Source: Oscillospiraceae bacterium (GTDB lineage: Bacteria; Bacillota; Clostridia; Oscillospirales; Oscillospiraceae). From it: DNA of 33,561 nucleotides. A model generated the notes under the pieces. That model did no database searches, was not told where the DNA came from, and saw nothing but the letters and a program-made list of their open reading frames with translations. Positions 18,634 through 33,561 of this stretch are shown piece after piece (the first letter of the stretch is position 1; every line of letters begins with the position of its first letter). A program made the position numbers and the translations under genes. The DNA lies in NCBI GenBank assembly GCA_017440525.1, contig JAFSHB010000071.1:1-33561 (forward strand). The letters run 5' to 3'.

Positions 18634-19383
18634 ATGAAAACAGGTTTGTGTTCCGTCAGCTTCCGGAAGCTGACGGTGGAAGAGATCATTGCGGCTGTCA
18701 AGGATGCCGGTCTTGACGGTATCGAGTGGGGCGGCGATGTCCATGTTCCTCACGGCGATGTGGAAAAGGCCAGATATGTGGCGAAGCTGATGAAGGAGGC
18801 AGGCCTTGAGACGCTGTCCTATGGTACATACTACTATTCCGGCGACCACGCTGTGGAAGATTTTAAGGGCGTCATCGACTGCGCTCTGGCGCTCGGCACC
18901 AAGATCCTCCGTGTCTGGGCAGGCTCCAAGACGCTGACAGAAGTGACCGACGAGTACCGCGCAAAGATCATTGCCGATACCAAGGCCCTGTGCGAGATGG
19001 CAAAGCCCCATGGTCTGACCGTTGCCTATGAGTACCACGGCTGGACCCTGACTGAGACGCTGGAGAGCGCCGTGCAGGCTTACGCTGAGGTGGGCGAAGA
19101 GAACATGAAGATGTACTGGCAGCCCAGCATCTTCAAGAGCGATGAGGAGAATATGGAAGCACTGAAGGCTATGCTGCCGTCCTGCTGCAACCTCCATATG
19201 TTCCATTGGGATGCCGAATATCACCGCTATGCGCTGGAAGAAGGCGCCGATGTGGTGAAGCAGTATCTGGATCTGGCAAAGACCTCCCCCAACATCTACG
19301 GTGTTATGCTGGAGTTCATCAAGGATGATTCCCTTGAGCAGATGAAGGCAGATGCCGCGGTCCTCAACAAGCTGGCAAAATAA
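18634..19383 (+). CDS. sugar phosphate isomerase/epimerase-like TIM barrel
   Basis: A 249-residue protein of the AP-endonuclease-2/xylose-isomerase-like superfamily, which covers sugar and inosose isomerases, epimerases and dehydratases. It shows the typical opening LCSVSFRKLTVEEIIAAVKD, the DGIEWGGDVH end of strand two, and candidate metal or acid-base residues E133 and H135 (VAYEYHG), H188/H191 and E227 (VMLEF). No signal peptide. I place the start at ATG 18634, eight bases after TGGAGG; the frame is open upstream but lacks a ribosome site. It has its own promoter, so a functional tie to the upstream reductase operon is plausible but not proven. A strong terminator follows. Specific substrate cannot be assigned. 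Confidence 0.87.
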   Translation: MKTGLCSVSFRKLTVEEIIAAVKDAGLDGIEWGGDVHVPHGDVEKARYVAKLMKEAGLETLSYGTYYYSGDHAVEDFKGVIDCALALGTKILRVWAGSKTLTEVTDEYRAKIIADTKALCEMAKPHGLTVAYEYHGWTLTETLESAVQAYAEVGEENMKMYWQPSIFKSDEENMEALKAMLPSCCNLHMFHWDAEYHRYALEEGADVVKQYLDLAKTSPNIYGVMLEFIKDDSLEQMKADAAVLNKLAK

Positions 19384-19390
19384 AGACACA

Positions 19391-19423
19391 AACTCCCTCG
19401 TGCACAGCACGAGGGAGTTTTTT
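19391..19423. terminator. terminator between convergent genes
   Basis: A perfect 13-bp stem (19391-19403 with 19407-19419), loop ACA, followed by TTTT on the plus strand. It ends the isomerase gene and probably also the minus-strand gene, which stops at 19428, although the T-run is weaker on that side. Confidence 0.88.
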
Positions 19424-19427
19424 GCTG

Positions 19428-20489
19428 TCACAGCTCGATATGGGACAGGAGATATTCCACAGCGACACTTTTGGCGCATAGATAGCGCGCTTTTTTGATT
19501 CGGGACAGCAGCCACTTGTCGCGGCCGTCGTAAAGTGCCTCCGGCAGGCTCTCAGGGACACGACCCTTTCGGATCCGCTCAGAGAGCTTCCAAGCATCTT
19601 TATCGGCTATGTCATGGTCCAGAAGATACTGAAGCACATCGTCCCGGAAGCAGATCAGTTCATGAGGCGCGTAGCCAAGCTTCTCAAGCATGAAGTGAGC
19701 ATCCTCATCCCAGACGCCGATACCGTGGACCAGTCCGAACAGGGCCACCAGATCGGCAAAGCTGCCGGGCTCAGGGAGGGGCGGTTCGTGTTTGCTGTCT
19801 TCATGGAGCAGCGCCCGCCACTTTGCTTTTGCGTCCTCCAGAGAAGTTGCGGTCGGCGCGCTGTCCCTTTCCAGTGCGATGCAGAAATGACCGAAGCAGA
19901 GTATGTCGGGATCGTCTTTGTCCGGATGATCGACCGTTGCTTCTTCATCAAAGGTTATGATCCAGTGCTGATCCAGCGCATCCAGAAGCGACTGCCGCGT
20001 CTGTTCCGGGAATGTGATGAGAAAGCCGGGCTCATGGGGCGGATAGCCCCAGTAAGTCCTCCATGGGATGTCGTGCCCATCGCCGGACATCAGTGTGCCG
20101 TCGTCGATACAATGGCTGTGCGGCAGGTCGAAGCCGTCTGTGGTATCGAAGCGCCAATACACGCTATGGCACTTGGGGCAGCGGTAGTGCGGCTGCAAAG
20201 GACACCCCCTGGTGATCCCCAGCAGATATAGAAGAAAACTGGACGCTTCCGTGCCTGCGATGCGGTAAGGGATCGCATTCTCCTTTGCCCACAGAGTCAG
20301 GTCGTGCAGTGCGGCAAGATGCAAGGCAAGGCTGCTCTGCTCCATTGCATGGAGCTCCTGCTCCATACGCATCTTGATGAGGTCATCGGGCGCTGGTCCG
20401 AAAAGTTCTGTTAAGGCTGCTCTCAGTGCTTCGAGCAGGGCTCCTTCGATCTGCTGTTTGGAAAGAGCTCCGTATCGCCATTGGATCAT
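19428..20489 (-). CDS. PolC-derived protein lacking catalytic aspartates, co-oriented with dnaA
   Basis: A 353-residue protein that I recognise as a shortened relative of the alpha subunit PolC. Ordered matches to PolC are: ASSFLLYLLGITRGCPLQPH (PolC [21 protein letters not shown]), CPKC, then GFDLPHSHC and DGHDIPWRTYWG (PolC GFDLPDKNCP, DGHDIPFETFLG), and later SFADLVALFGLVHGIGVW, ICFRDDVLQYLL and ERIRKGR (PolC ELVQISGLSHGTDVW, CRDDIMVYL, ESVRKGK). Where PolC has its catalytic PDIDLNFSG this protein reads EPGFLITFPEQ, so both aspartates are gone, and the fourth zinc cysteine is missing. The exonuclease, fingers and C-terminal parts are absent. The start at 20489 follows AAGGAGG; 54 bases separate it from dnaA. 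The frame is intact, so it is probably a functioning, non-polymerase protein. Confidence 0.75.
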   Translation of the reverse strand: MIQWRYGALSKQQIEGALLEALRAALTELFGPAPDDLIKMRMEQELHAMEQSSLALHLAALHDLTLWAKENAIPYRIAGTEASSFLLYLLGITRGCPLQPHYRCPKCHSVYWRFDTTDGFDLPHSHCIDDGTLMSGDGHDIPWRTYWGYPPHEPGFLITFPEQTRQSLLDALDQHWIITFDEEATVDHPDKDDPDILCFGHFCIALERDSAPTATSLEDAKAKWRALLHEDSKHEPPLPEPGSFADLVALFGLVHGIGVWDEDAHFMLEKLGYAPHELICFRDDVLQYLLDHDIADKDAWKLSERIRKGRVPESLPEALYDGRDKWLLSRIKKARYLCAKSVAVEYLLSHIEL

Positions 20490-20543
20490 GTTCGTATCGT
20501 CCTCCTTTTCATATCCTATCGTGATCGCGATCATAGCATCTCT

Positions 20544-21851
20544 TTATTCCTGGAGCTGCTTCGACAGTTCCTCCATGATCTTGCAGAGCCTGGGGTCTTT
20601 GGACTGTAAAAGATCCTGGATCTTTTCGATGCCGTGCAGGACGGTGGCATGGTGCCGCCCGAAGGTCTGACCGATCTTGGGGAGGGGGAGACCTGCGGCT
20701 GTCCTTGCCAGATACATGGATATCTGCCGCGCTTCCGCAACGACCATATTGCGCTGTGGCCCCAAAAGCTGTGTGCGGTCGAGGCCGTAATAACGGCTCA
20801 CCGTATCGATGATGCGGTCCGCGCAGATCGTAAGGGTCGGTGCTTCCATACAGAGGTCTTCGATGGCCTTTTCCACATTCTCCTTTGTCAGGGCCATATC
20901 GTCCAGATCGCGGAGGGCGCGGATCTTTTTCAGCGCGCCTTCGATCTGACGCACATTGTCTGTCAGCCGCGAGGCCAGGAGCTCCAGCACCTCCTCAGAG
21001 AAATGCAGGCCCAATGCCGCGGCCTTGGATCGAAGGATCAAAAGCCGTGTCTCACGGTCAGGCGGTACGATGCCTACCATGATGCCTTCTCCGAACCGGC
21101 TCTTCAGCCTCTCCTCCAGCGTGGTCATATCACCGGGGCGTCGGTCGGCGGCCAGTACGATCTGCCTGTGGTGTTCGTGCAGCTCATTGAAAGTGTGGAA
21201 GAATTCTTCCTGTGTTGCCTCTTTTCCTGCGATGAATTGGATATCATCCATCAGAAGCACATCTGCGGTGCGGTATTTTTCACGGAAGGCAGTTGTGTTT
21301 CGGTCTCGGATCGCTTCGACCAGCTCGTGGGTGAACTGCTCACATTTGACATAGACCACCTGGAGCTGCGGCTGTCGGGCGCAGATCTCGTTGGCGATCG
21401 CATACAGCAGGTGGGTCTTACCAACACCGGGAGGACCGTAGAAAAACAGAGGATCGTAGATGCTCTGTCCCGGCTCATGTGCCACAGCTGTGGCGACCTT
21501 CAAAGCTACCTGATTGGAGGAGCCTGCGATGTAATTGTCCAATGTGAACTGTGGGCAGGAGGGAAAAGACGGGCGCTGTGGATCTTTGTCCCAGTGAGGC
21601 TTGTCTCCCGGATCGCTCCGCAGCACAGGCTCTACGGTCTGGCCGAGCTGCCGCAGTGCCTGGCGGATATGCTCGATATAATGCTTTTCGATGACCTGCT
21701 GACGGAAGTCTGTAGGAACATATAGGATCAGCTGTGTCTCGGTCAGGTCGATCGCCTTGGTGTCGTCGAACCATGTCTGTACGAGCACATCGCCCAGCAG
21801 AAGTTCGAGATGTTCCAAGACCTTAGCCCAGATATGATCGGCGCTGTACAT
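20544..21851 (-). CDS. dnaA: DnaA-family replication initiator (unusual recognition loop)
   Basis: A 435-residue AAA+ protein with the full DnaA layout: domain I (1-80, IWAKVLEHLELLLG and WFDDTKAI), linker to about 110, AAA+ domain with FTLDNYIAGSSNQVA, Walker A GPPGVGKTHLL, Walker B VLLMDDIQFIAGKEATQEEFFH, sensor I and the TTLEERLKSRFGEG arginine-finger block, sensor II RQIEGAL, and DNA-binding domain IV (about 335-435). The DnaA signature is changed: residues 397-404 read FGRHHATV where the family has FGGRDHTTV, so one glycine is missing, Asp is His, and one Thr is Ala. The ribosome site AAAGGAGG precedes the ATG. No dnaN is adjacent; the PolC-derived gene follows instead. It could be the sole initiator or a paralogue. 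Confidence 0.92.
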   Translation of the reverse strand: MYSADHIWAKVLEHLELLLGDVLVQTWFDDTKAIDLTETQLILYVPTDFRQQVIEKHYIEHIRQALRQLGQTVEPVLRSDPGDKPHWDKDPQRPSFPSCPQFTLDNYIAGSSNQVALKVATAVAHEPGQSIYDPLFFYGPPGVGKTHLLYAIANEICARQPQLQVVYVKCEQFTHELVEAIRDRNTTAFREKYRTADVLLMDDIQFIAGKEATQEEFFHTFNELHEHHRQIVLAADRRPGDMTTLEERLKSRFGEGIMVGIVPPDRETRLLILRSKAAALGLHFSEEVLELLASRLTDNVRQIEGALKKIRALRDLDDMALTKENVEKAIEDLCMEAPTLTICADRIIDTVSRYYGLDRTQLLGPQRNMVVAEARQISMYLARTAAGLPLPKIGQTFGRHHATVLHGIEKIQDLLQSKDPRLCKIMEELSKQLQE

Positions 21852-22141: not shown

Positions 22142-22834
22142 ATGCTCTCTGCCACGGTGTGGCTGATCTTCAGCGGCATGCTCTACTCACTTCGCCTTGG
22201 GAGCAGCGGTTCGTTCCCCAAGCCTTTGACGGCACAGGAGGAGCGGGACTATCTTGCGCGGGCAGCCGATGGGGATCTGGAGGCAAGAAATATCCTGATC
22301 GAGCGAAATCTTCGGTTGGTCGCGCATATCATGAAGAAATATTATGCACAGACGGACGATCAGGAGGATCTGATCTCCATCGGTACGATCGGGCTGATAA
22401 AGGGGATCTCCACCTTCGATCCGTCCAAAGGGGCAAGGCTTGCGACCTACGCGGCAAGATGCGTGGAAAATGAGATCTTGATGCATTTCCGCTCTCAGAA
22501 AAAAACAGCGCAGGATGTTTCGCTGTCTCAGTATATCGAAACAGGGAAGGATGGCAATGCCCTGTCTTTGATGGAAGTGGTCGCTTCGGATGAAGATCTG
22601 TTTGAAGATCTGAGCGATAAGGAGCTTTACGGAAAGCTGTACGATGCAATGGAGGCCTGTCTGACCAAGCGGGAAAAGCATATCATCGCTCTGCGCTATG
22701 GATTGGGTGGAAAGAAGCCGCTCCCGCAGCGTGAGATCGCGGAGCAGTGCGGGATCTCCAGAAGCTATGTATCCCGCATCGAAAAAAAGGCTCTCCAAAA
22801 GCTGCAGACAGCCCTTGGAGAGTACCGTTTATAA
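22142..22834 (+). CDS. sigK: RNA polymerase sporulation sigma factor SigK
   Basis: Late mother-cell sporulation sigma factor (230 residues). The N-terminus is a hydrophobic pro-sequence (MLSATVWLIFSGMLYSL), as in pro-SigK, then FPKPLTAQEERDYL begins the mature part. Region 2 has ARNILIERNLRLVAHI, DLISIGTIGLIKGISTF and LATYAARCVENEILM; region 4 has EKHIIALRYGLGGKKPLPQREIAEQCGISRSYVSRIEKKAL. These match SigK rather than the housekeeping factor. The gene is uninterrupted: no skin-type element and no recombinase beside it. I chose ATG 22142 because of the GGAGGTGATC site just upstream; the frame stays open upstream but without a ribosome site. The gene is divergent from dnaA, and its 3' end overlaps the convergent acetyltransferase by 6 bases. 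Confidence 0.93.
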   Translation: MLSATVWLIFSGMLYSLRLGSSGSFPKPLTAQEERDYLARAADGDLEARNILIERNLRLVAHIMKKYYAQTDDQEDLISIGTIGLIKGISTFDPSKGARLATYAARCVENEILMHFRSQKKTAQDVSLSQYIETGKDGNALSLMEVVASDEDLFEDLSDKELYGKLYDAMEACLTKREKHIIALRYGLGGKKPLPQREIAEQCGISRSYVSRIEKKALQKLQTALGEYRL

Positions 22835-25020: not shown

Positions 25021-28000
25021 ATGAAGAAACAGCTTACGAGAGCCATCAGTCTTTTGCTGAGTTTGGTCCTGATGCTGGGGATGATCCCCGCAGGTGTTGC
25101 CGCACCTGTTGAAGCATCGGCAGCTTCGGCAGAGGCTGAACTGACCGATGGCTCTATCCGTGTGGACTTTATGGACTTCGCGCAGCAAGCGGCGCAGCAG
25201 TCCTGGTGGTCTGCGCTCAAGGACACGAACATGAGCGGTGTGAAGGTCCTTGGCATCCGCAATGCGTCTACCATCCAGACGGAAGCGGAATTGCAGGCGC
25301 TGGCACAGATGCGTGACTGGATGGCGCAGACCGTCAACTGGAGCATCGATGTGGAGCGTACCAATTTGAACTCTGTGGGGCATCTCAAGCGTTTGTTCAT
25401 CAATGCTGATGCGTCCAGAGGCTTTGCTCTGCGCCTGTATCCGGCCTATCTGTCCGATGCTGTCTATACCACCTGGTATTTCAATGTGGAAGTGCCCGAG
25501 GGCGGTGCAGGTGCCTATGCTATGCTGCTGGATCACCTGTTGGATCGGGCGACCTACACGATCGATAATACCGGTGCGGGCGGCTATATGAATGTATATG
25601 TCAATGATGCGCTCGTCTATGAGGGGCTCCATACCAGAGCCGAAGAACCAAAGCCTGTGGTGCAGAATATGGGCATCGTGGAGCTCCACGAGGGCACGAA
25701 CACCGTTGCTTTCCGGGTCACGGCTGACTGCAACGGCAATGCTGTGAACTCTGACCGTTCGGTCAACCTGCGCGGTATCGAGTTCAAAAAGCTCGATACC
25801 GTGGAAGTACAGGCCTACATCAATGAGACGATCGATCTCAATACCACCTATCTGCCCTTTGATCATGCGGTGAGCTCTGAGACCCATACGGCGGTATCCT
25901 CCAATGATATCGTCCTGTCCGCCTCCATCGATGCCAACGGCGATCTGGTCCTCAGCGGCAAGGTCCCCGGTGAGGTCGAGGTGGATATCCTGCGCGGGGA
26001 TGAGGTCGTGGCTGCCGTGGATGTGATCGTGCGGGAATTTACCGGCGAACTGGATGACCTGGGCGCCAATACTGTCACTATCGATCTGGCGGCGTCCTTG
26101 ACCAGGGCTGTCGATGAGCCATGGTGGGAGACCTTCGCCGATGGGGAAGAGTCCGGCACCAAGGTGCTGGACGGCACGGAAGAGGATTATGAGGCACTGC
26201 GTGACTGGCTCGATGCCAGCGGCGCATGGAATCTGGCGGAAGTGCCTGCGGCGGCTGTCACCCTCGGTGTGAGTGGTGCGGCTTCTGAGGAACTGGAGCT
26301 TTCTGTTCTGGCTCCGGCCTCCGGTCTGTACGCACTGCGTGTACAGGGCAGTTTTGACGGTGCAGATGTGACTGTCAATGATACTGCTGTGTATGCCGGC
26401 CTCACCGATGCAGGGAAGTTCGACTTAGGCGCTGTGTATTTTGAAAAGGGTCTGAATACCCTTGCGTTCTGCGGTGATACGGCACTTCGCAGTATCGTTC
26501 TGACCCCTCTGGGCTCCAGACAGGCAGAACTTGACAGCACCCTGTATGTAGACCTTCTGCAAACTTATCTGCCCTTCGATACGGATCTGGAGACTGCCGA
26601 ACTGGGGGCCGTATCCGACGATCCCGTCGTGGCATCTGCCCATGTGGATGAGGAGGGCTATCTGATCGTTGGCGGCAGGCAGCTTGGCTCCGCCACCATC
26701 ACGGTGACGATGCAGGGGGAGGCTGCGTTCCGCTTTACGGTGCATGTCATCGAGCCCGGTGTGTTCCGCAACCTCTTCTATACCCTTGATGAGTTCAAGG
26801 CTGCGACCCTTGCCGTCGGTGAAGTGGCAGAGGGTGTCGTGTCCGGTCTGACTACGGAGGGCACGCCCCTTGCCGAGAAGCAGCTCCGTCATGACGGCAG
26901 CGTTTATTTCAGTTCAAGCGATATCTCTGTGGCGACTGTGGATCAGGCTACCGGTGATGTCACCTGTGTGGGCGAAGGCACTGCCAAGATCTCTGCCTAC
27001 GCTGTGTTCGGCGGTGTGACACAGAGAGCGGATGCTGTCCTGTGCGTCACCGATGATACGGATCTGGCTGCGATCGGCCTGTATGCCGTGGCAGACTATG
27101 TGGGTGTGGACAACACCCTGCAGATCAAAGCCGAGGGCGTCAAATCCTCCGGCGTCAAGGCTGATATGAGTCTGTATCCGCTTTCCTGGACTGTGGATGA
27201 TTCGTCCATCGCCAAGGTCGATGACATGGGCAGACTGACCGGTCTGAAGCCCGGTACTGTCACCGTGACTGCGACCGCCGGTGTCATGCGTATGGCGATC
27301 GTCGGCTCCATGGAAGTGGAGATCGTGGAGAATGCACTGCTCGATGTGGACGCGCAGCTGTATGACTTTACCTACAGCCGTGTCCTGGATGTAAAGACTG
27401 CGACTCTGGAGACCGATGGCTATGAGGTCGATTGGGAGAGGACGGTCAAGAACGGTGCGGATATGAGATGCACCGGCAACAATGGCATCGATCTGAAGGT
27501 CAATGCAGGCGAGGCTCTGTATATGAACTTTATGATCAAAAAGTCGGGCTGGTACCGTCTGGAGGTCCGCGGCCGCACCTATGTGGGACGCGGTGCGCAT
27601 GTGGATGTGTTCGTGGATGATGCCAGCTACATGGGCATGATCGACTTTGAGGGCATCCGCAGTGAGAACTACAATGGCGGCGGCTTCCTCAATACCGTTT
27701 GGCTGGATGCCGGCGTCCATAGTGTGAGCATGGTCTCGCAGGACAACAGCCGCTATATCCAGCTTGGTAAGGTCAACTTCTATCCCACAGAAGACCCCAG
27801 AGTGGTGGATGTGGCGCTGTCTGCGGATAAGACGGAGCTGATCATCGGTGAGACCACCGAGACGCAGGTGGTCCTGACTGATGCCAACGGCGCTCCCTTC
27901 TATCTCAAGCGGGTAGCAAAGATCCCGGCATACACCAACTACTATATGCTGGAAAGCACGGACCCTGATGTGGTGAGCATCTCCGGCAGTACACTTACCG

Positions 28001-31000
28001 GCAAGGAGGGCAAACTGGAGGGCACTATCGAGGTGGACTTTATCGACGCCGCTCTGCAGGCCAGCAGTCAAAGCTGGTGGTCTGCCCTCCGCGATACCGA
28101 TACCAAAAATGTAAAGATCTACGGCCGCAGCGGCTACAGCGATACGGTCACGGCTGAGGAGACGGCGGCCTACCGTCAGATGCTGCAGTGGCTCAGCGAC
28201 ACCTACGGCTGGACCATCAATGAGAAGCGCTCTATGGTGGAGCACGAGGGCCTGATGAAGCGCCTGTTCATCAACTGCGATCCTGAGCAGGGCTACGGTA
28301 TGCGCTTCTATCCCACCTTCCTCAGCGATAATTTGCAGCAGACCGCCCTGTATCTTACCGTCAACGCGGAGACGAGCGGGCTGTATGATATGTCCTTTGC
28401 GTATCTGCAGGATACCAAGATCTACACCAATGGGCGCGGCTCCGGCGCGACCTTCGATCTGTATGTCAACGATCAGCTGATCAAGAGCAATGTGAACACC
28501 TGGGGCGAGACCAAGCGCATCGAGCTGGAGCTTGGCACGGTGTCTCTGTCCAAAGGAGAGAACACGGTGACGCTGGTCGTCCATTCCGATAAGGTCGGCG
28601 GCACGACCAACGGCGACCGCACGCTGAACCTGTGTGCCATGACCTTCACTCCCAAGAACGGCATCACGGTCAATGTGGCCGAAGCCATGGCGGAAGCATC
28701 CGGGCAGGACTTCTGGGCAGATCTCCGCAATACGGATACCACGGATGTGAAGATGGCAGGCAGCGACGGTACCTATGCCACGGAAACAGAATTTGCCGCC
28801 TATCTTGATATGGTACAGTGGCTGAAGGATACCTACGGCTGGACGATCGACGAAGAGAAGACCCTGGTGGAAAATACCTATTACAGAAAGCGTCTGTTCG
28901 TCAACGGCGATCCGGAGCGGCTCTTCGGTATGTTCTTCTATCCCACTTTGCTCGATTCCAACCCCAAGGTCTCCGGTCTGTATCTGACCGTGGATGTGGC
29001 GGAGGCCGGGCTCTACGATATGGTCCTTGACTATGTGCAGAGCAATTCTCTGTATGTCAACGGACGCGGCCCCGGCGGTACAGTGGATATCTATGTCAAC
29101 GATGTTCTGGTCAAGGATGACCTGAATACCTGGGGTGCGACCCAGCTCGTCAGTCTGGAGCTTGGACAGGTCCAGCTCCACGCAGGTGAGAATACAGTTC
29201 TGATCCATGTCCATTCTGATAAGTCCGGCAAGACTACCAATGCCGACCGCTCTTTCCTTCTTACAAATATGTCCTTTGTCCCCATAGGTGCGGAAGGCGC
29301 CAAGGGAACGGGCGGCACAGCGAAGGTGAAGGCCGTCTGTGAGATCCTGCGCGAGCCTGCCGCAGATGAGCTGACGGTCACAGTCAAGCCCGGCCTTGTG
29401 ACTTCGGTGGAGCTTTCTGCCGACAGCACGACGGTCCGTCCTGATGCGGAGGACTTCTCCGTCTATGCCGCGGTCAACGGTCTGGAAGGCACGATCGGAG
29501 AGCTTCCCGAAGGTGTGCAGACCATTCTGGAGAGCGGTGATACTTCTATCGCCACCGTTACGCAGGAGGGACTTGTGCATCTGACCGGCAAGGAAGGCTC
29601 TGTGGAACTGCGTCTGACTGTAACGGAAGGGGAGCGGACCGTCACCGCCAAGCTGTGGATCACAGTCACCTCCGGTAAGACCGCTCCCACGCTCTACACC
29701 GAAGAAGAGCGTGCCAATGCCCAGGAGAATGTGAAAAAGTACACCTGGGCATGGGAAGAGATGAACAGCGCCGTGAAGCTGGCGGATTACTATCTGGAGC
29801 ACTTCGATCAGATCTACTACATGATCACCCAGGAAGGCCTCCCCAGAAACTCCGGTGTGGCCCGCCCTCTGGACACTTATTCCAGAGCGCACTGCCCCTA
29901 CTGTGATACCGATCTGCAGTCCATCTATTCCCATCAGCCCTGGGTCATCAACACCATCGAGAATCCGTGGAAGATCACCTGTCCCATCTGTGACAGAGAT
30001 TTCCCCTCCAATGACTTTGAGAGCTTCTACAAGTGCGGCATCGATGAACAGGGCCGCTTCTCTGTGGAGCGTGCCATGGCCAATGGCGGTGAGCAGTATC
30101 TGGTCAACGAGCTGTATCCCGAGATGGGCGAGGGCTGGGGCGTCGATGACGGCTTCGGCTATAAGCCCGGTGAGTTTGCCGATAACGGCACCGAGGTGGT
30201 CTGGACCTTCATCGCCCACTATGTGGCCGCTGTCATGTATGGCCTCGGCGAATACGACCAGCACTCCATCCTGGAGATCCTGGATGCGATCGGCCATGCC
30301 TATCTTTACACCGGCGATGAGAAGTATGGCTCTGCCGGCGCGATCTTGATCGACCGCATCGCCGATGTCTATCCCGACTTCCTGACCAGCAACTATCCCA
30401 TCTACGACTACGGCGAATCCGATGGATATTCCGGTCGCGGCAAGATCATGGGCATCATTTGGGAGCCCATCATCGGCAACTGCTTTGCAAGAGCAGTGGA
30501 TACCTTCTGGCCTGCCATGGACAACCCCGATGTGATCGAGTATCTGCGAAACAATGCTGTCTACAAGGGCATGGATGCAGAAGCGATCACGCCTGAGCAG
30601 GTCCGCGATCATACGGAGCAGAACATCCTGATCGAGATCTACGAGGGCGCCAAGGCGAACCTCTATAACGGCAACTTCGGTATGCACCAGTCCGCAGTCG
30701 GTTATGCCGCCGCGGCCTATGGCAAAGAGCCGCTGAGGACCGAGATGCTGGAATGGATCTTTAACAAGGAAGAGCAGCGCACTGTCAACGGTGTATCCAG
30801 CAATGCGGGCGGCGATGTGATGTATATGCTCATCGATGAAGTCTCCCGCGACGGCTTCGGCAATGAGGGCTCTTTGTCCTACAACTCCCTGTGGCCCATC
30901 TATATGCTGGATGTGGCAGATGCTCTGGAAGGTATCGAGGGCTTCGACCTTTGGGAGAACTCCAAGTTTATCGGGCTCTTCACCGGCGGCATCCGCATGA

Positions 31001-33561
31001 CCACCTTGGGCGATAAGTCTCCCAACCTCCATGAGACCTCCGGCGCGTTCCAGAATATCTCCTCCACGGCAAATCTGGAGCGCATGCTGACGGCTTTCGT
31101 CAAGACCGGGGACCGTGTACTGGCCCGTGCCATCTATGCAAGGAATGGCAACAAGGTCGATGGTCTCCACGGCGATATCTTCACCAAGGATCCCGAGTAT
31201 GGTATCCGCAGCCAGATCCAGCAGATCGTACTGGAGGACGGCGAGTGGGATATGTCTCAGAGCTCCATGCTGCCCGGCTACGGCATCGCGATCTTGCGGG
31301 AAGGTCCTCAGAGATATCTTGGTAAGAATGTCAACGGCGACCAGTTCTCTGACTACTGGATGTATTTTGGCTATACCAACAGCGCGCATCATCAGCGTGA
31401 AGTGCTTGGCATCGGTGTGGAAGCCTTCGGACTGCCGCTTGACGGCAACATGGGCTATCCCAGAAATGTCAACGCCTCCGATCCCACCCGTATGCAGTGG
31501 ATCGCCAATACTGTTTCCAACAATACTGTCGTGGTGGACGATAAGCCCCAGATGGAGATGGCAGAAGGCGGCTTCCCTCTGCACTTCGATGATGCAGGTG
31601 CTGTCAAGGTCATGGATGCGGAGGCACCCAATGCCTATCCCGAGGCTGATGTCTACCGCCGTACAGTCGTTTCCGTGGCGGCGGAGGATGGTCAGCACTA
31701 CGCTGTGGACTTCTTCCGTGTCCTTGGCGGCTCCGAGCATGTCTATTCTTTCCACGGTGCGACCAGAATCGACCCCACAGTAGAAGGTCTGGATATGACC
31801 GAACAGCCTATGGGTACTTACGCCGGTGCGGATATCCCCTTTGGCGACCACGATATCTCCGGTACCGGTGATGCTTCCACCAATATGGGCAGCGGCTACA
31901 GCTGGCTGTATAATGTCTCCCGCGATGAGACCCCGGAGGCGACCTTCTCCATCGATTGGCAGATCGAGGACTATCAGCATCAGCTGGTCACCTCCAATGG
32001 CATCCACATGAGACTGACCATGCTCTCCGAGGAGCCTATGACCGAAGTGGCGCTGGCTGACGGTCAGCCTGCGCAGGATGGCAGAGCGCCTGACCATGTG
32101 GAATATGTACTGATTCGCCGCAGCGGCGATGAGGGGATGGATACGCTCTTTACTGCTGTGATCGAGCCCTATAAGGGGACCGCGCAGATCCTGCGCTCCG
32201 AATTGGTCGAGACCAGTCTGGTCGAAGGCGTAGAAACGCCCACGGATAAGATCGCGGTCATCAAGAATACTTTGGTCGGGGGCCGTGTGGACTATGTGAT
32301 CTATGCCACGAACCCCAACTGCACCTATGAGATCGATGGCCTGTTCCGCTTCCGCGGCGCAATCGGTGTATGCTCCTACAAGGGCGGTCAGCAGGTCTAT
32401 GCCTATGGCAACGAGGCAGAGCTGGTGGGCGATCTGGTAGTAGATGCATTGCCCAGAGTGACCGGCACAGTAGAGAGCTTTACGGAAGATCTGGCCCAGA
32501 GCTATGAGATGACCGTCAAGCTGGATACGCCGATCGCCGCCGAGGAATTGAAAGACCGCTGGATCTATGTGGAGAACGACGGCAAGGAGAATGCGGCCTA
32601 TCAGATCTTCAAGGCAGAGATCCGGGGCGATACGGCGGTGCTGGATCTGCAGCATCAGTGCCTGATCCGTGCGTGCGCCGATCCTGCGGATATGAGCCGC
32701 GGCTATGTCCATAATCTGACAGTAGGGGATCGCTTCACCATCCCTATGAGCGCATCCTCTGACATCGGTGCTTACTTCACCCATACCACCGATCAGGTCG
32801 TGAAGGCCGGCAGCAAGCAGACTTTGATCCTCGGCAAGGCAGGCAGCGGCGCGGCCTATGAGATCGAGGGCCTGCCCACCACCGCCAAGATCGACGGCAA
32901 GACCGGCACCGTCACATGGACGCCCTCCAGAACGCAGACAGGCCGCTATCCTGTGACAGTCAAGGCTGTCTGTGATGGCGAGACTGTTGCCGAGATGTCC
33001 TTCGTGATCTATGTGGTCAGCTATACCGGCTCTGCCTATGATGCTTCTGTCTGTAAGCATGCCAAGGCTGTGACCTATGAGGCTGACGGTATGCTCGAGA
33101 CTGTCTGTCCCGCCTGCGGCACGGTCACCAAGACCGCCGTGGAGGATGCGCCCGAAGTGACCGAAAAGTTCAAGTTCGTCGGCTCCAACATGACTTTGGG
33201 CAACGAGCTGAAGCTGAACTTCATGGTGGATACCGCCGATCTGAAGGACGGTCATACCGCCCTCATCACTCACAAGGGCGAGACCGTGGAAGCGAGCTTC
33301 GCCAAGTATAACAACACCTACAGCTTCGTGAGCCAGTCCGTTGCCGCCAAGGAGATGGCAGATGCCATCGAAGTGGTGGTCGTGGATGCAGACGGTAACG
33401 AAGTCTCCGAGGTCTATACCGCTTCCGTGAGAGACTACGCTATGAAGGCGCTGACTGCCGCAAGCTCCTCCGCCGAGGTCAAGACCATGGTGGTGGATAT
33501 GCTGAACTACGGCGCGGCGGCACAGACCTACTTCGAGTATAACGAAGCCGATCTTGCCAAC
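25021..33561 (+). CDS. giant secreted multidomain protein with heparinase II/III-like lyase core (3' end outside window)
   Basis: Open for 2847 codons to the last base. Residues 1-32 are a signal peptide (MKKQLTRAISLLLSLVLMLG). Next come four copies of a WW-RLFIN module (48-258, 352-498 degenerate, 1005-1213, 1217-1423), bacterial Ig-like (BIG2-type) domains (about 505-770, 929-1003, 1461-1551) and a sugar-binding-like sandwich (771-925). Residues about 1558-2470 match heparinase II/III-family lyases: a helical part with CPYC (C1625, C1628) and CPIC (C1654, C1657) knuckles, NGNFGMHQ (H1889), then a beta part with GYGIAILREG and SAHHQREVLGIGVEAFG (H2123, H2124). An Ig-like TGTVTWTPSRTQTGRYPVTV domain and the LNYGA domain (from 2717) follow. 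It probably eliminates uronic-acid polysaccharides at the cell surface; the substrate is unknown. GGAG precedes the ATG. Confidence 0.88.
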   Translation, partial: MKKQLTRAISLLLSLVLMLGMIPAGVAAPVEASAASAEAELTDGSIRVDFMDFAQQAAQQSWWSALKDTNMSGVKVLGIRNASTIQTEAELQALAQMRDWMAQTVNWSIDVERTNLNSVGHLKRLFINADASRGFALRLYPAYLSDAVYTTWYFNVEVPEGGAGAYAMLLDHLLDRATYTIDNTGAGGYMNVYVNDALVYEGLHTRAEEPKPVVQNMGIVELHEGTNTVAFRVTADCNGNAVNSDRSVNLRGIEFKKLDTVEVQAYINETIDLNTTYLPFDHAVSSETHTAVSSNDIVLSASIDANGDLVLSGKVPGEVEVDILRGDEVVAAVDVIVREFTGELDDLGANTVTIDLAASLTRAVDEPWWETFADGEESGTKVLDGTEEDYEALRDWLDASGAWNLAEVPAAAVTLGVSGAASEELELSVLAPASGLYALRVQGSFDGADVTVNDTAVYAGLTDAGKFDLGAVYFEKGLNTLAFCGDTALRSIVLTPLGSRQAELDSTLYVDLLQTYLPFDTDLETAELGAVSDDPVVASAHVDEEGYLIVGGRQLGSATITVTMQGEAAFRFTVHVIEPGVFRNLFYTLDEFKAATLAVGEVAEGVVSGLTTEGTPLAEKQLRHDGSVYFSSSDISVATVDQATGDVTCVGEGTAKISAYAVFGGVTQRADAVLCVTDDTDLAAIGLYAVADYVGVDNTLQIKAEGVKSSGVKADMSLYPLSWTVDDSSIAKVDDMGRLTGLKPGTVTVTATAGVMRMAIVGSMEVEIVENALLDVDAQLYDFTYSRVLDVKTATLETDGYEVDWERTVKNGADMRCTGNNGIDLKVNAGEALYMNFMIKKSGWYRLEVRGRTYVGRGAHVDVFVDDASYMGMIDFEGIRSENYNGGGFLNTVWLDAGVHSVSMVSQDNSRYIQLGKVNFYPTEDPRVVDVALSADKTELIIGETTETQVVLTDANGAPFYLKRVAKIPAYTNYYMLESTDPDVVSISGSTLTGKEGKLEGTIEVDFIDAALQASSQSWWSALRDTDTKNVKIYGRSGYSDTVTAEETAAYRQMLQWLSDTYGWTINEKRSMVEHEGLMKRLFINCDPEQGYGMRFYPTFLSDNLQQTALYLTVNAETSGLYDMSFAYLQDTKIYTNGRGSGATFDLYVNDQLIKSNVNTWGETKRIELELGTVSLSKGENTVTLVVHSDKVGGTTNGDRTLNLCAMTFTPKNGITVNVAEAMAEASGQDFWADLRNTDTTDVKMAGSDGTYATETEFAAYLDMVQWLKDTYGWTIDEEKTLVENTYYRKRLFVNGDPERLFGMFFYPTLLDSNPKVSGLYLTVDVAEAGLYDMVLDYVQSNSLYVNGRGPGGTVDIYVNDVLVKDDLNTWGATQLVSLELGQVQLHAGENTVLIHVHSDKSGKTTNADRSFLLTNMSFVPIGAEGAKGTGGTAKVKAVCEILREPAADELTVTVKPGLVTSVELSADSTTVRPDAEDFSVYAAVNGLEGTIGELPEGVQTILESGDTSIATVTQEGLVHLTGKEGSVELRLTVTEGERTVTAKLWITVTSGKTAPTLYTEEERANAQENVKKYTWAWEEMNSAVKLADYYLEHFDQIYYMITQEGLPRNSGVARPLDTYSRAHCPYCDTDLQSIYSHQPWVINTIENPWKITCPICDRDFPSNDFESFYKCGIDEQGRFSVERAMANGGEQYLVNELYPEMGEGWGVDDGFGYKPGEFADNGTEVVWTFIAHYVAAVMYGLGEYDQHSILEILDAIGHAYLYTGDEKYGSAGAILIDRIADVYPDFLTSNYPIYDYGESDGYSGRGKIMGIIWEPIIGNCFARAVDTFWPAMDNPDVIEYLRNNAVYKGMDAEAITPEQVRDHTEQNILIEIYEGAKANLYNGNFGMHQSAVGYAAAAYGKEPLRTEMLEWIFNKEEQRTVNGVSSNAGGDVMYMLIDEVSRDGFGNEGSLSYNSLWPIYMLDVADALEGIEGFDLWENSKFIGLFTGGIRMTTLGDKSPNLHETSGAFQNISSTANLERMLTAFVKTGDRVLARAIYARNGNKVDGLHGDIFTKDPEYGIRSQIQQIVLEDGEWDMSQSSMLPGYGIAILREGPQRYLGKNVNGDQFSDYWMYFGYTNSAHHQREVLGIGVEAFGLPLDGNMGYPRNVNASDPTRMQWIANTVSNNTVVVDDKPQMEMAEGGFPLHFDDAGAVKVMDAEAPNAYPEADVYRRTVVSVAAEDGQHYAVDFFRVLGGSEHVYSFHGATRIDPTVEGLDMTEQPMGTYAGADIPFGDHDISGTGDASTNMGSGYSWLYNVSRDETPEATFSIDWQIEDYQHQLVTSNGIHMRLTMLSEEPMTEVALADGQPAQDGRAPDHVEYVLIRRSGDEGMDTLFTAVIEPYKGTAQILRSELVETSLVEGVETPTDKIAVIKNTLVGGRVDYVIYATNPNCTYEIDGLFRFRGAIGVCSYKGGQQVYAYGNEAELVGDLVVDALPRVTGTVESFTEDLAQSYEMTVKLDTPIAAEELKDRWIYVENDGKENAAYQIFKAEIRGDTAVLDLQHQCLIRACADPADMSRGYVHNLTVGDRFTIPMSASSDIGAYFTHTTDQVVKAGSKQTLILGKAGSGAAYEIEGLPTTAKIDGKTGTVTWTPSRTQTGRYPVTVKAVCDGETVAEMSFVIYVVSYTGSAYDASVCKHAKAVTYEADGMLETVCPACGTVTKTAVEDAPEVTEKFKFVGSNMTLGNELKLNFMVDTADLKDGHTALITHKGETVEASFAKYNNTYSFVSQSVAAKEMADAIEVVVVDADGNEVSEVYTASVRDYAMKALTAASSSAEVKTMVVDMLNYGAAAQTYFEYNEADLAN
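25162..25794 (+). repeat. WW-RLFIN module, copy 1
   Basis: Residues 48-258 of the giant protein. Landmarks: QQSWWSALKDTNMSGVKVLG, RDWMAQTVNWSID, LKRLFINADASRGFALRLYP, and a beta-rich second half with YVNDALVYEG and HEGTNTVAFRVTAD. I do not recognise a named family for the first half; the second half looks like a carbohydrate-binding sandwich. Confidence 0.75.
26074..26514 (+). repeat. WW-RLFIN module, degenerate copy 2
   Basis: Residues 352-498. It keeps DEPWWETFADGEESGTKVLD, ALRDWLDASGAW and the NDTAVYAG/EKGLNTLAF half, but lacks the whole KRLFIN-YP block present in the other three copies. Confidence 0.6.
28033..28659 (+). repeat. WW-RLFIN module, copy 3
   Basis: Residues 1005-1213. Landmarks: SQSWWSALRDTDTKNVKIYG, LQWLSDTYGWTIN, MKRLFINCDPEQGYGMRFYP, YVNDQLI, SKGENTVTLVVHSDK. 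Directly followed by copy 4. Confidence 0.8.
28669..29289 (+). repeat. WW-RLFIN module, copy 4
   Basis: Residues 1217-1423. Landmarks: GQDFWADLRNTDTTDVKMAG, VQWLKDTYGWTID, RKRLFVNGDPERLFGMFFYP, YVNDVLV, HAGENTVLIHVHSDKSG. Closest to copy 3, with which it is in tandem. Confidence 0.8.
33169..33561 (+). repeat. LNYGA-type C-terminal domain of the giant protein (runs to window end)
   Basis: From residue 2717: GSNMTLGNELKLNF, AAKEMADAI, SVRDYAMKAL, VKTMVVDMLNYGAAAQ, YNEADLAN. Nearly the same as copy A of the leucine-rich-repeat protein at 4469-4885, which continues with GLLTEEQQALATE and a second copy. It is also preceded by a cysteine-pair segment (VCPACG) as in that protein. Confidence 0.85.

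Follow-up and report, generated by a model that had tools for sequence, protein, structure and literature searches.

Catalytically inactive members have been described for the Y and X families of DNA polymerases (PMC12926913), and ImuB is an inactive polymerase relative that is kept in a complex (PMC12926913, PMC3919608). For the C family, the 2013 survey by Timinskas (PMC3919608) required an intact active site; it describes PolC variants without the exonuclease from Clostridia and Negativicutes, and one extra copy in Thermotogae. A 2026 survey (PMC12926913) based its C-family trees on the PHP and polymerase domains after strongly diverged or truncated sequences had been dropped, and its available text mentions no inactive C-family group. 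Here we describe dPolC, a catalytically dead PolC core encoded directly behind a second dnaA gene, dnaA2, in an Oscillospiraceae bacterium (assembly GCA_017440525.1, here G000), a metagenome-assembled genome (MAG) of 147 contigs, 80.79% complete and 2.86% contaminated. The window is the whole of contig JAFSHB010000071.1, 33,561 nucleotides. The author of an initial annotation of this sequence knew of no described system of this kind. The open-licence PMC literature that we searched likewise yielded no description of an inactive C-family polymerase or inactive PolC homologue, of PolC paralogues of this kind, of PolC with an XRE domain or a decoy role, or of a pairing like that of DnaA2 and dPolC.

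Our best guess, tentative and with a probability of roughly 0.38, is that dPolC may be a non-catalytic PolC-core adaptor that is co-expressed with DnaA2, the two together adjusting initiation. We favor it because of the anatomy of the dead core, because its gene is likely to be transcribed together with that of an initiator paralogue, and because other dead cores lie near or are fused to DNA-binding proteins.

A PolC core stripped of its catalytic parts

The two genes and the recognizable parts of dPolC are located as follows.

19428..20489, minus strand: dPolC, 353 amino acids, a catalytically dead, PHP-less PolC core
20040..20438, minus strand: approximate span of the thumb/palm and zinc-knuckle block, residues about 18-150 of 353
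19773..20039, minus strand: middle stretch of about 90 residues, in place of the catalytic palm segments
19434..19772, minus strand: fingers block (residues 240-352), approximate extent
20501..20506, minus strand: Shine-Dalgarno sequence AGGAGG of dPolC
20544..21851, minus strand: dnaA2, the second DnaA, 435 amino acids, with ATPase motifs and arginine finger retained

The dPolC open reading frame (ORF) extends to an in-frame upstream ATG at 20534 (19428-20534, minus strand, 368 amino acids), and the ATG at 20489 is the likely start of the 353-residue protein. Searched with the 368-residue query, the NCBIfam models PRK00448 (1.6e-37) and TIGR01405 (2.3e-34), the Pfam family DNA_pol3_alpha (2.9e-5, the sole Pfam match at E 0.01) and the PDB entries 3f2b (1.8e-27) and 9qpc (1.1e-25) all gave matches far beyond chance, so the outcome that would have spoken against descent from PolC, a lack of profile matches, did not arise. 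The curated equivalog score was 128.7 bits, short of the cut-off of 873. A family search of the same 368 residues gave no helix-turn-helix (HTH) match.

The descent is also evident from an alignment to a PolC profile built from 41 canonical PolC rows and one exonuclease-less relative. Residues 18-149, the thumb/palm and zinc knuckle, align at 68.4 bits, and residues 240-352, the fingers, align collinearly at 60.3 bits, as expected of a protein made of separated parts of PolC in their original order. Residues 150-239 have no significant PolC match and stand for 204 profile columns that include the DxD motif and the third catalytic aspartate (catalytic residues as in PMC12592400). Both catalytic segments are therefore absent from dPolC, which bears out the initial view of a catalytically dead protein. 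The more specific proposal that DxD had been replaced by EPGFLITFPEQ is only one possible alignment; MAFFT places EPGFLITFP against a later QHPGG-type motif. The loss of the fourth zinc cysteine was confirmed (CIDDG for CPxCG), and in place of the PolC stretch GSRGSVGSS dPolC has AGTEASS. dPolC begins after the PHP domain, without PHP, exonuclease or OB/NTD, and ends inside the fingers block, without the helix-hairpin-helix (HhH) domain and the C-terminal clamp-binding motif. Judged from its sequence, dPolC cannot be a polymerase, since it lacks PHP and exonuclease as well as the two catalytic segments of the palm and the end that binds the clamp. The earlier suggestion that it might bind the clamp is not favored either, and is left without a basis, since the part of PolC that does so is among those lost.

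The frame, codon usage and Shine-Dalgarno site of dPolC nevertheless look selected. G+C contents at the three codon positions (0.649/0.402/0.652) follow a coding pattern, although the third-position value is below those of all the genes read in the correct frame for comparison (0.662-0.781). In its choice of synonymous codons dPolC resembles host genes, with a z score of 7.1 against a composition null; the same score is 9.4 for dnaA2, 14.5 for the ordinary dnaA and 19.0 for the ordinary polC, the latter two being among the reference genes. When 233 codons of the host polC were allowed to decay neutrally to 33% identity (substitutions only, no indels), a mean of 6.9 stops accumulated and 0.1% of 2000 runs remained stop-free. 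Retention by selection, as first proposed from the intact frame and good ribosome site, is supported. No dPolC orthologue was found for a direct estimate of nonsynonymous to synonymous divergence (dN/dS).

The second initiator and its locus

The dnaA of the window is a second copy, a point overlooked in the initial annotation. The ordinary dnaA of G000 (dnaA1) lies on contig C66 and is followed by dnaN and a RecF-like gene (Pfam RecF/RecN/SMC), then by the start of a gyrase-A-type gene (dnaN and gyrase assigned by Pfam). Six DnaA boxes with at most one mismatch, two of them perfect, lie between dnaA1 and dnaN on C66 (L039:2027-2271). The genome also encodes a full-length PolC of 1425 amino acids on contig C5. 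DnaA2 scores 432.4 bits against TIGR00362, over the cut-off of 343.9, and 286 bits against PRK00149.3-3, under the cut-off of 410. Its Walker A, Walker B and arginine finger are kept, but the DNA-binding signature reads H-H-A-T in the window and D-N-S-T in the DnaA2 of a second genome of the genus, G003, versus D-H-[TS]-T in canonical rows; of 16 canonical-like rows, 15 have the first D. Both DnaA2 proteins also differ in the box VII region. No DnaA-box cluster was found at dnaA2 within the window; in G003 the stretch separating sigK from dnaA2 contains two looser sites, TTWTNCACA.

It is likely, on positional grounds, that dnaA2 and dPolC are co-transcribed as one operon, because the 54 bases between the dnaA2 stop (20544) and the dPolC start contain no terminator-like site in a consensus scan of the minus strand. 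A hairpin follows dPolC, and the probable operon of the initial annotation stands. The same scan gave a weak five-pair terminator-like site within dnaA2 (21057-21045). The neighboring features are listed below.

18634..19383, plus strand: TIM-barrel gene (AP_endonuc_2), convergent with dPolC; it adjoins dnaA2 in G003 too
19390..19420, no strand assigned: hairpin of 14 pairs, terminator-like on both strands, where the dPolC and TIM-barrel genes converge
22142..22834, plus strand: gene for a sigK-like sporulation sigma factor (PRK05803, 285.8 bits; cut-off 252), in divergent orientation to dnaA2

The sigK-like product also scored 278.5 bits against TIGR02846, below the cut-off of 298.65.

DnaA2 is present in two of eight genomes of the genus, G000 and G003, whose copies share 59% identity, and the dead PolC-like gene in one, G000. 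A conserved link between the PolC-like gene and dnaA is therefore not borne out, as the dnaA2 of G003 stands without it. The order sigK, dnaA2, TIM barrel, FAD enzyme is kept in G003, with 44 bases and no dPolC between dnaA2 and the TIM-barrel gene, and the gene must therefore have been gained or lost behind dnaA2. A long hairpin, recognized by eye, directly follows dnaA2 in G003; it is absent from the consensus-scan list, probably because its T run lies inside the stem. Between the two DnaA2 proteins dN is 0.34, with dS saturated (pS 0.756, pN 0.274), and the corresponding dN for DnaA1 is 0.137; DnaA2 is constrained but evolving faster than DnaA1.

The divergent arrangement of dnaA2 and a sigK-like gene is seen in both dnaA2 genomes. 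SpoIVA was found in four of the eight genomes of the genus (G000-G007), and in neither of those with dnaA2; this distribution is not significant, the MAGs being 70-88% complete. Elsewhere in the window, a very large open frame on the plus strand (25021-33561) has a start that resembles a signal peptide by eye and is cut off by the end of the contig; contig C5 (L038) shows a start of the same sort. The long minus-strand ORF at 26914-33273 is antisense to the large frame of the window.

Other dead PolC cores in the order

A PHP-less dead PolC core fused to an XRE-type HTH domain was found in at least seven of 394 genomes of the order, at a search threshold of E 1e-21.

G472, L168:6001-7419: fusion (HTH_3 3.8e-14, DNA_pol3_finger 6.7e-13)
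G481, L169; G705, L170; G507, L171; G664, L172; G438, L173; G484, L155: further fusions

Counted from a conserved methionine, the fusions of G472, G481, G705 and G664 are 472-473 amino acids long and that of G438 is 478; in G507 and G484 the contig ends before the gene does. In the six aligned copies the first catalytic aspartate is lost in all, the second in two and the third, replaced by threonine, in all, so that four copies lack two of the three and two copies lack all three. Core dN/dS, estimated for six of the seven copies (G438 left out), was 0.103, 0.111, 0.157, 0.185 and 0.186 in the five pairs for which dS was finite (0.69-2.45); in the other 10 of the 15 pairs dS was saturated. The fusion cores are under purifying selection. 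G484, G472 and G481 belong to three families; within the stretches fetched, their DNA is alike (79-89% identity) in the gene itself (cut by the contig end in G484) and about 85-130 upstream bases, and nowhere else. This restriction suggests that the fusion gene was transferred between families as a single-gene cassette.

Dead cores without a fused HTH domain were also identified. G332 encodes a short, PHP-less PolC-like protein of 357 amino acids (L102:7261-8334, minus strand), followed by a gene for a 160-residue AAA+ protein. We considered whether the latter is derived from DnaA but make no such claim: HHalign gave 91% to DnaA, but three of five control AAA+ proteins gave 88-96% (the others 70 and 4). 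Downstream of these two genes, L102:1-5872 (minus strand) holds several adjacent genes with CxxxCxxC motifs that appear radical-SAM-like by eye. PHP-containing PolC-like proteins of 727 and 757 amino acids occur in G029 and G332, two of 20 genomes of that genus; they share 39% identity, and each gene overlaps an upstream HTH gene. G197 encodes a PolC-like protein of 731 amino acids, and in G043 a copy is split over two frames. By alignment, the G029 protein keeps only the second catalytic aspartate, that of G197 only the first, and the long G332 copy and that of G043 none. Beyond those named, several PolC-like frames shorter than 1000 amino acids may be cut by contig ends.

Two second PolC-like genes encode exonuclease-less, C-terminally short proteins that keep all three catalytic aspartates: 817 amino acids in G430 (L115:4253-6706, minus strand; PRK00448 1036.6 bits, over the cut-off) and 884 in G505 (L114:4172-6826, plus strand; 738.5 bits, under it). 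Helicase-like, AAA+ and DUF2201-type genes, some recognized by eye, lie near both. G505 holds a further remnant of replication proteins, a 572-residue protein (L133:6293-8011, minus strand) in which a reduced RecA-type part of DnaB (TIGR00665, 5.1e-22) is fused to the AAA+ part of a DnaA (TIGR00362, 6.6e-34). A 245-residue protein of G114 (L106:5780-6517, minus strand) is recognizable by a DnaA AAA+ domain (TIGR00362, 2e-52; Bac_DnaA, 1.6e-38) and gave no match to the DNA-binding domain IV; its neighbors have no obvious function.

The relationship of dPolC to these proteins was analyzed in trees with very long branches. Dead copies fell outside the 41 canonical PolC rows in one tree (support 98/96), and in another 10 dead rows were separated from 30 canonical and exonuclease-less rows (98/89). 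After removal of four other long rows, the window dPolC was placed among canonical PolC, next to G055 (69/61). A clade of dPolC, the fusions and the short G332 copy had support of 58/34, again with long branches. Approximately unbiased (AU) tests did not reject grouping of dPolC with its own genome's PolC (p 0.296), with PolC of its own family (p 0.188) or with the fusions (p 0.417; long branches). At 15 diagnostic sites dPolC resembles other families at four, its own at three and neither at six, with gaps at two.

Searches of genome contigs with dPolC gave weak matches at 13 loci, in records of Treponema and gammaproteobacteria, with E values from 2e-6 to 4e-4; our guess is that these are DnaE. 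Viral contigs gave no match to the window dPolC, five distant matches (21% identity) to the G197 protein and, with a PolC alignment as query, four loci whose PolC frames are long (1338-1540 amino acids). Phages searched with dPolC gave 22 records, and plasmids searched with the G197 protein gave 41. No mobile short PolC copy was found in two of these records, MT837681.1 and OY725841.1, both of which carry a full-length polC beside an ispG-like gene (by eye).

Homologues scattered away from dnaA and decaying neutrally would, according to the initial annotation, have told against its proposal. The first half of this pattern is present, as the other dead cores examined lie away from dnaA; the second is contradicted by the codon and stop tests and by the dN/dS of the fusions. 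Because related dead fragments, some of them fused to DNA-binding domains, occur in the same order, the fragment beside dnaA2 looks more like a part put to new use than like debris.

Possible functions and comparison with known systems

If dPolC is an adaptor, DnaA2 would supply DNA binding and ATP switching, dPolC would offer a PolC-like surface (zinc knuckle and fingers) that might dock a replisome partner or a primer-template, and the pair would act at DnaA boxes to restrain initiation or to redirect it. Dead cores fused to or adjacent to XRE-HTH proteins would then represent the same idea with another DNA-binding partner. It is a more doubtful proposition that the order has repeatedly turned the PolC core into a non-catalytic regulatory module with varied DNA-binding proteins, XRE-HTH through fusion or adjacency and a second DnaA in G000, through which replisome state would feed back on initiation or transcription.

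Several observations weigh against the adaptor proposal. The dnaA2-dPolC pair was seen once, in one MAG that is 80.79% complete, and a single case argues only weakly for a fixed functional link; the G003 locus indicates that DnaA2 does not need dPolC. A consensus scan found no sigma-70-type promoter on the minus strand. The canonical dnaA genes of G332, G029, G197, G043, G430 and G505 each lie on another contig, and no dnaA was seen by eye around the fusions in the stretches fetched. The GSRGSVGSS stretch of PolC is linked to nucleotide sensing, and since it is lost, dPolC is unlikely to sense nucleotides by the PolC route.

Alternatively, dPolC may be selected but unrelated to DnaA2, a cargo gene that inserted between dnaA2 and its terminator, uses the promoter and has a job of its own, for example in stress or growth control. 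The existence of the same locus without the gene in G003 favors such a cargo, as does the variety of contexts in which dead cores occur: fusions without shared flanks (G484, G472, G481), an AAA+ neighbor in G332, and other settings in G197 and G043. Several of these cores, however, are beside or fused to DNA-binding or AAA+ proteins, and a neighbor with both properties, as DnaA2 is, is suggestive; we consider an unrelated cargo somewhat unlikely.

Patchy presence and the apparent single-gene spread of the fusions between families would also be expected of a phage-defence decoy that ties up phage proteins recruiting host PolC or initiation factors, and several PolC-like relatives lie in gene islands with AAA+, DUF3990, HTH and helicase-like genes (some by eye). 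PADLOC, however, found no family for dPolC or for any of six further proteins submitted to it, and what it gave for dnaA2 and the DnaB-DnaA fusion was limited to weak matches of the ATPase type; the surroundings in the window look like ordinary chromosome, and no phage partner is known, so that a decoy role is improbable. Least credible is a decaying polC fragment that is open by chance: its single occurrence, very long branch, lack of an orthologue for dN/dS and low third-position G+C would suit a pseudogene, but the frame has stayed open over 353 codons while identity has fallen to about 30%, and this, the coding-type G+C, the codon score, the good ribosome site and the rarity of stop-free neutral simulations speak against it.

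Should the broader proposition of a repeatedly reused PolC core be correct, DnaA2 would be an initiator that has a polymerase mimic of its own in dPolC. The gene for a polymerase-derived protein beside that of a second initiator, and the selected fusion of HTH and dead PolC, are small and testable, and they bear on how the machinery of replication may communicate with initiation or transcription.

Among known proteins, PolC itself (PRK00448/TIGR01405; PDB 3f2b, 9qpc) shares with dPolC the collinear thumb/palm and zinc-knuckle block and fingers block; unlike PolC, dPolC has no PHP, exonuclease, OB/NTD, catalytic aspartate segments, HhH or clamp motif. The XRE-HTH fusions likewise have a PHP-less dead core that begins at about the same point of PolC, but carry an N-terminal HTH domain and a recognizable middle segment, neither of which is found in dPolC. 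The N-terminal block of dPolC scores 73.9 bits to the fusions versus 68.4 to PolC, and its C-terminal block 34.9 versus 60.3.

Chlamydiae, like G000, have two DnaA proteins in one genome, and we know of no polymerase-derived partner gene beside a chlamydial dnaA. Hda, SirA and YabA act on DnaA to limit initiation and so resemble the role proposed here; to our knowledge, none derives from a DNA polymerase. ImuB acts as a hub and, like the proposed dPolC, is a dead polymerase retained for protein contacts in a replication or repair complex; it differs in being a Y-family polymerase, with ImuA and DnaE2 as its partners.

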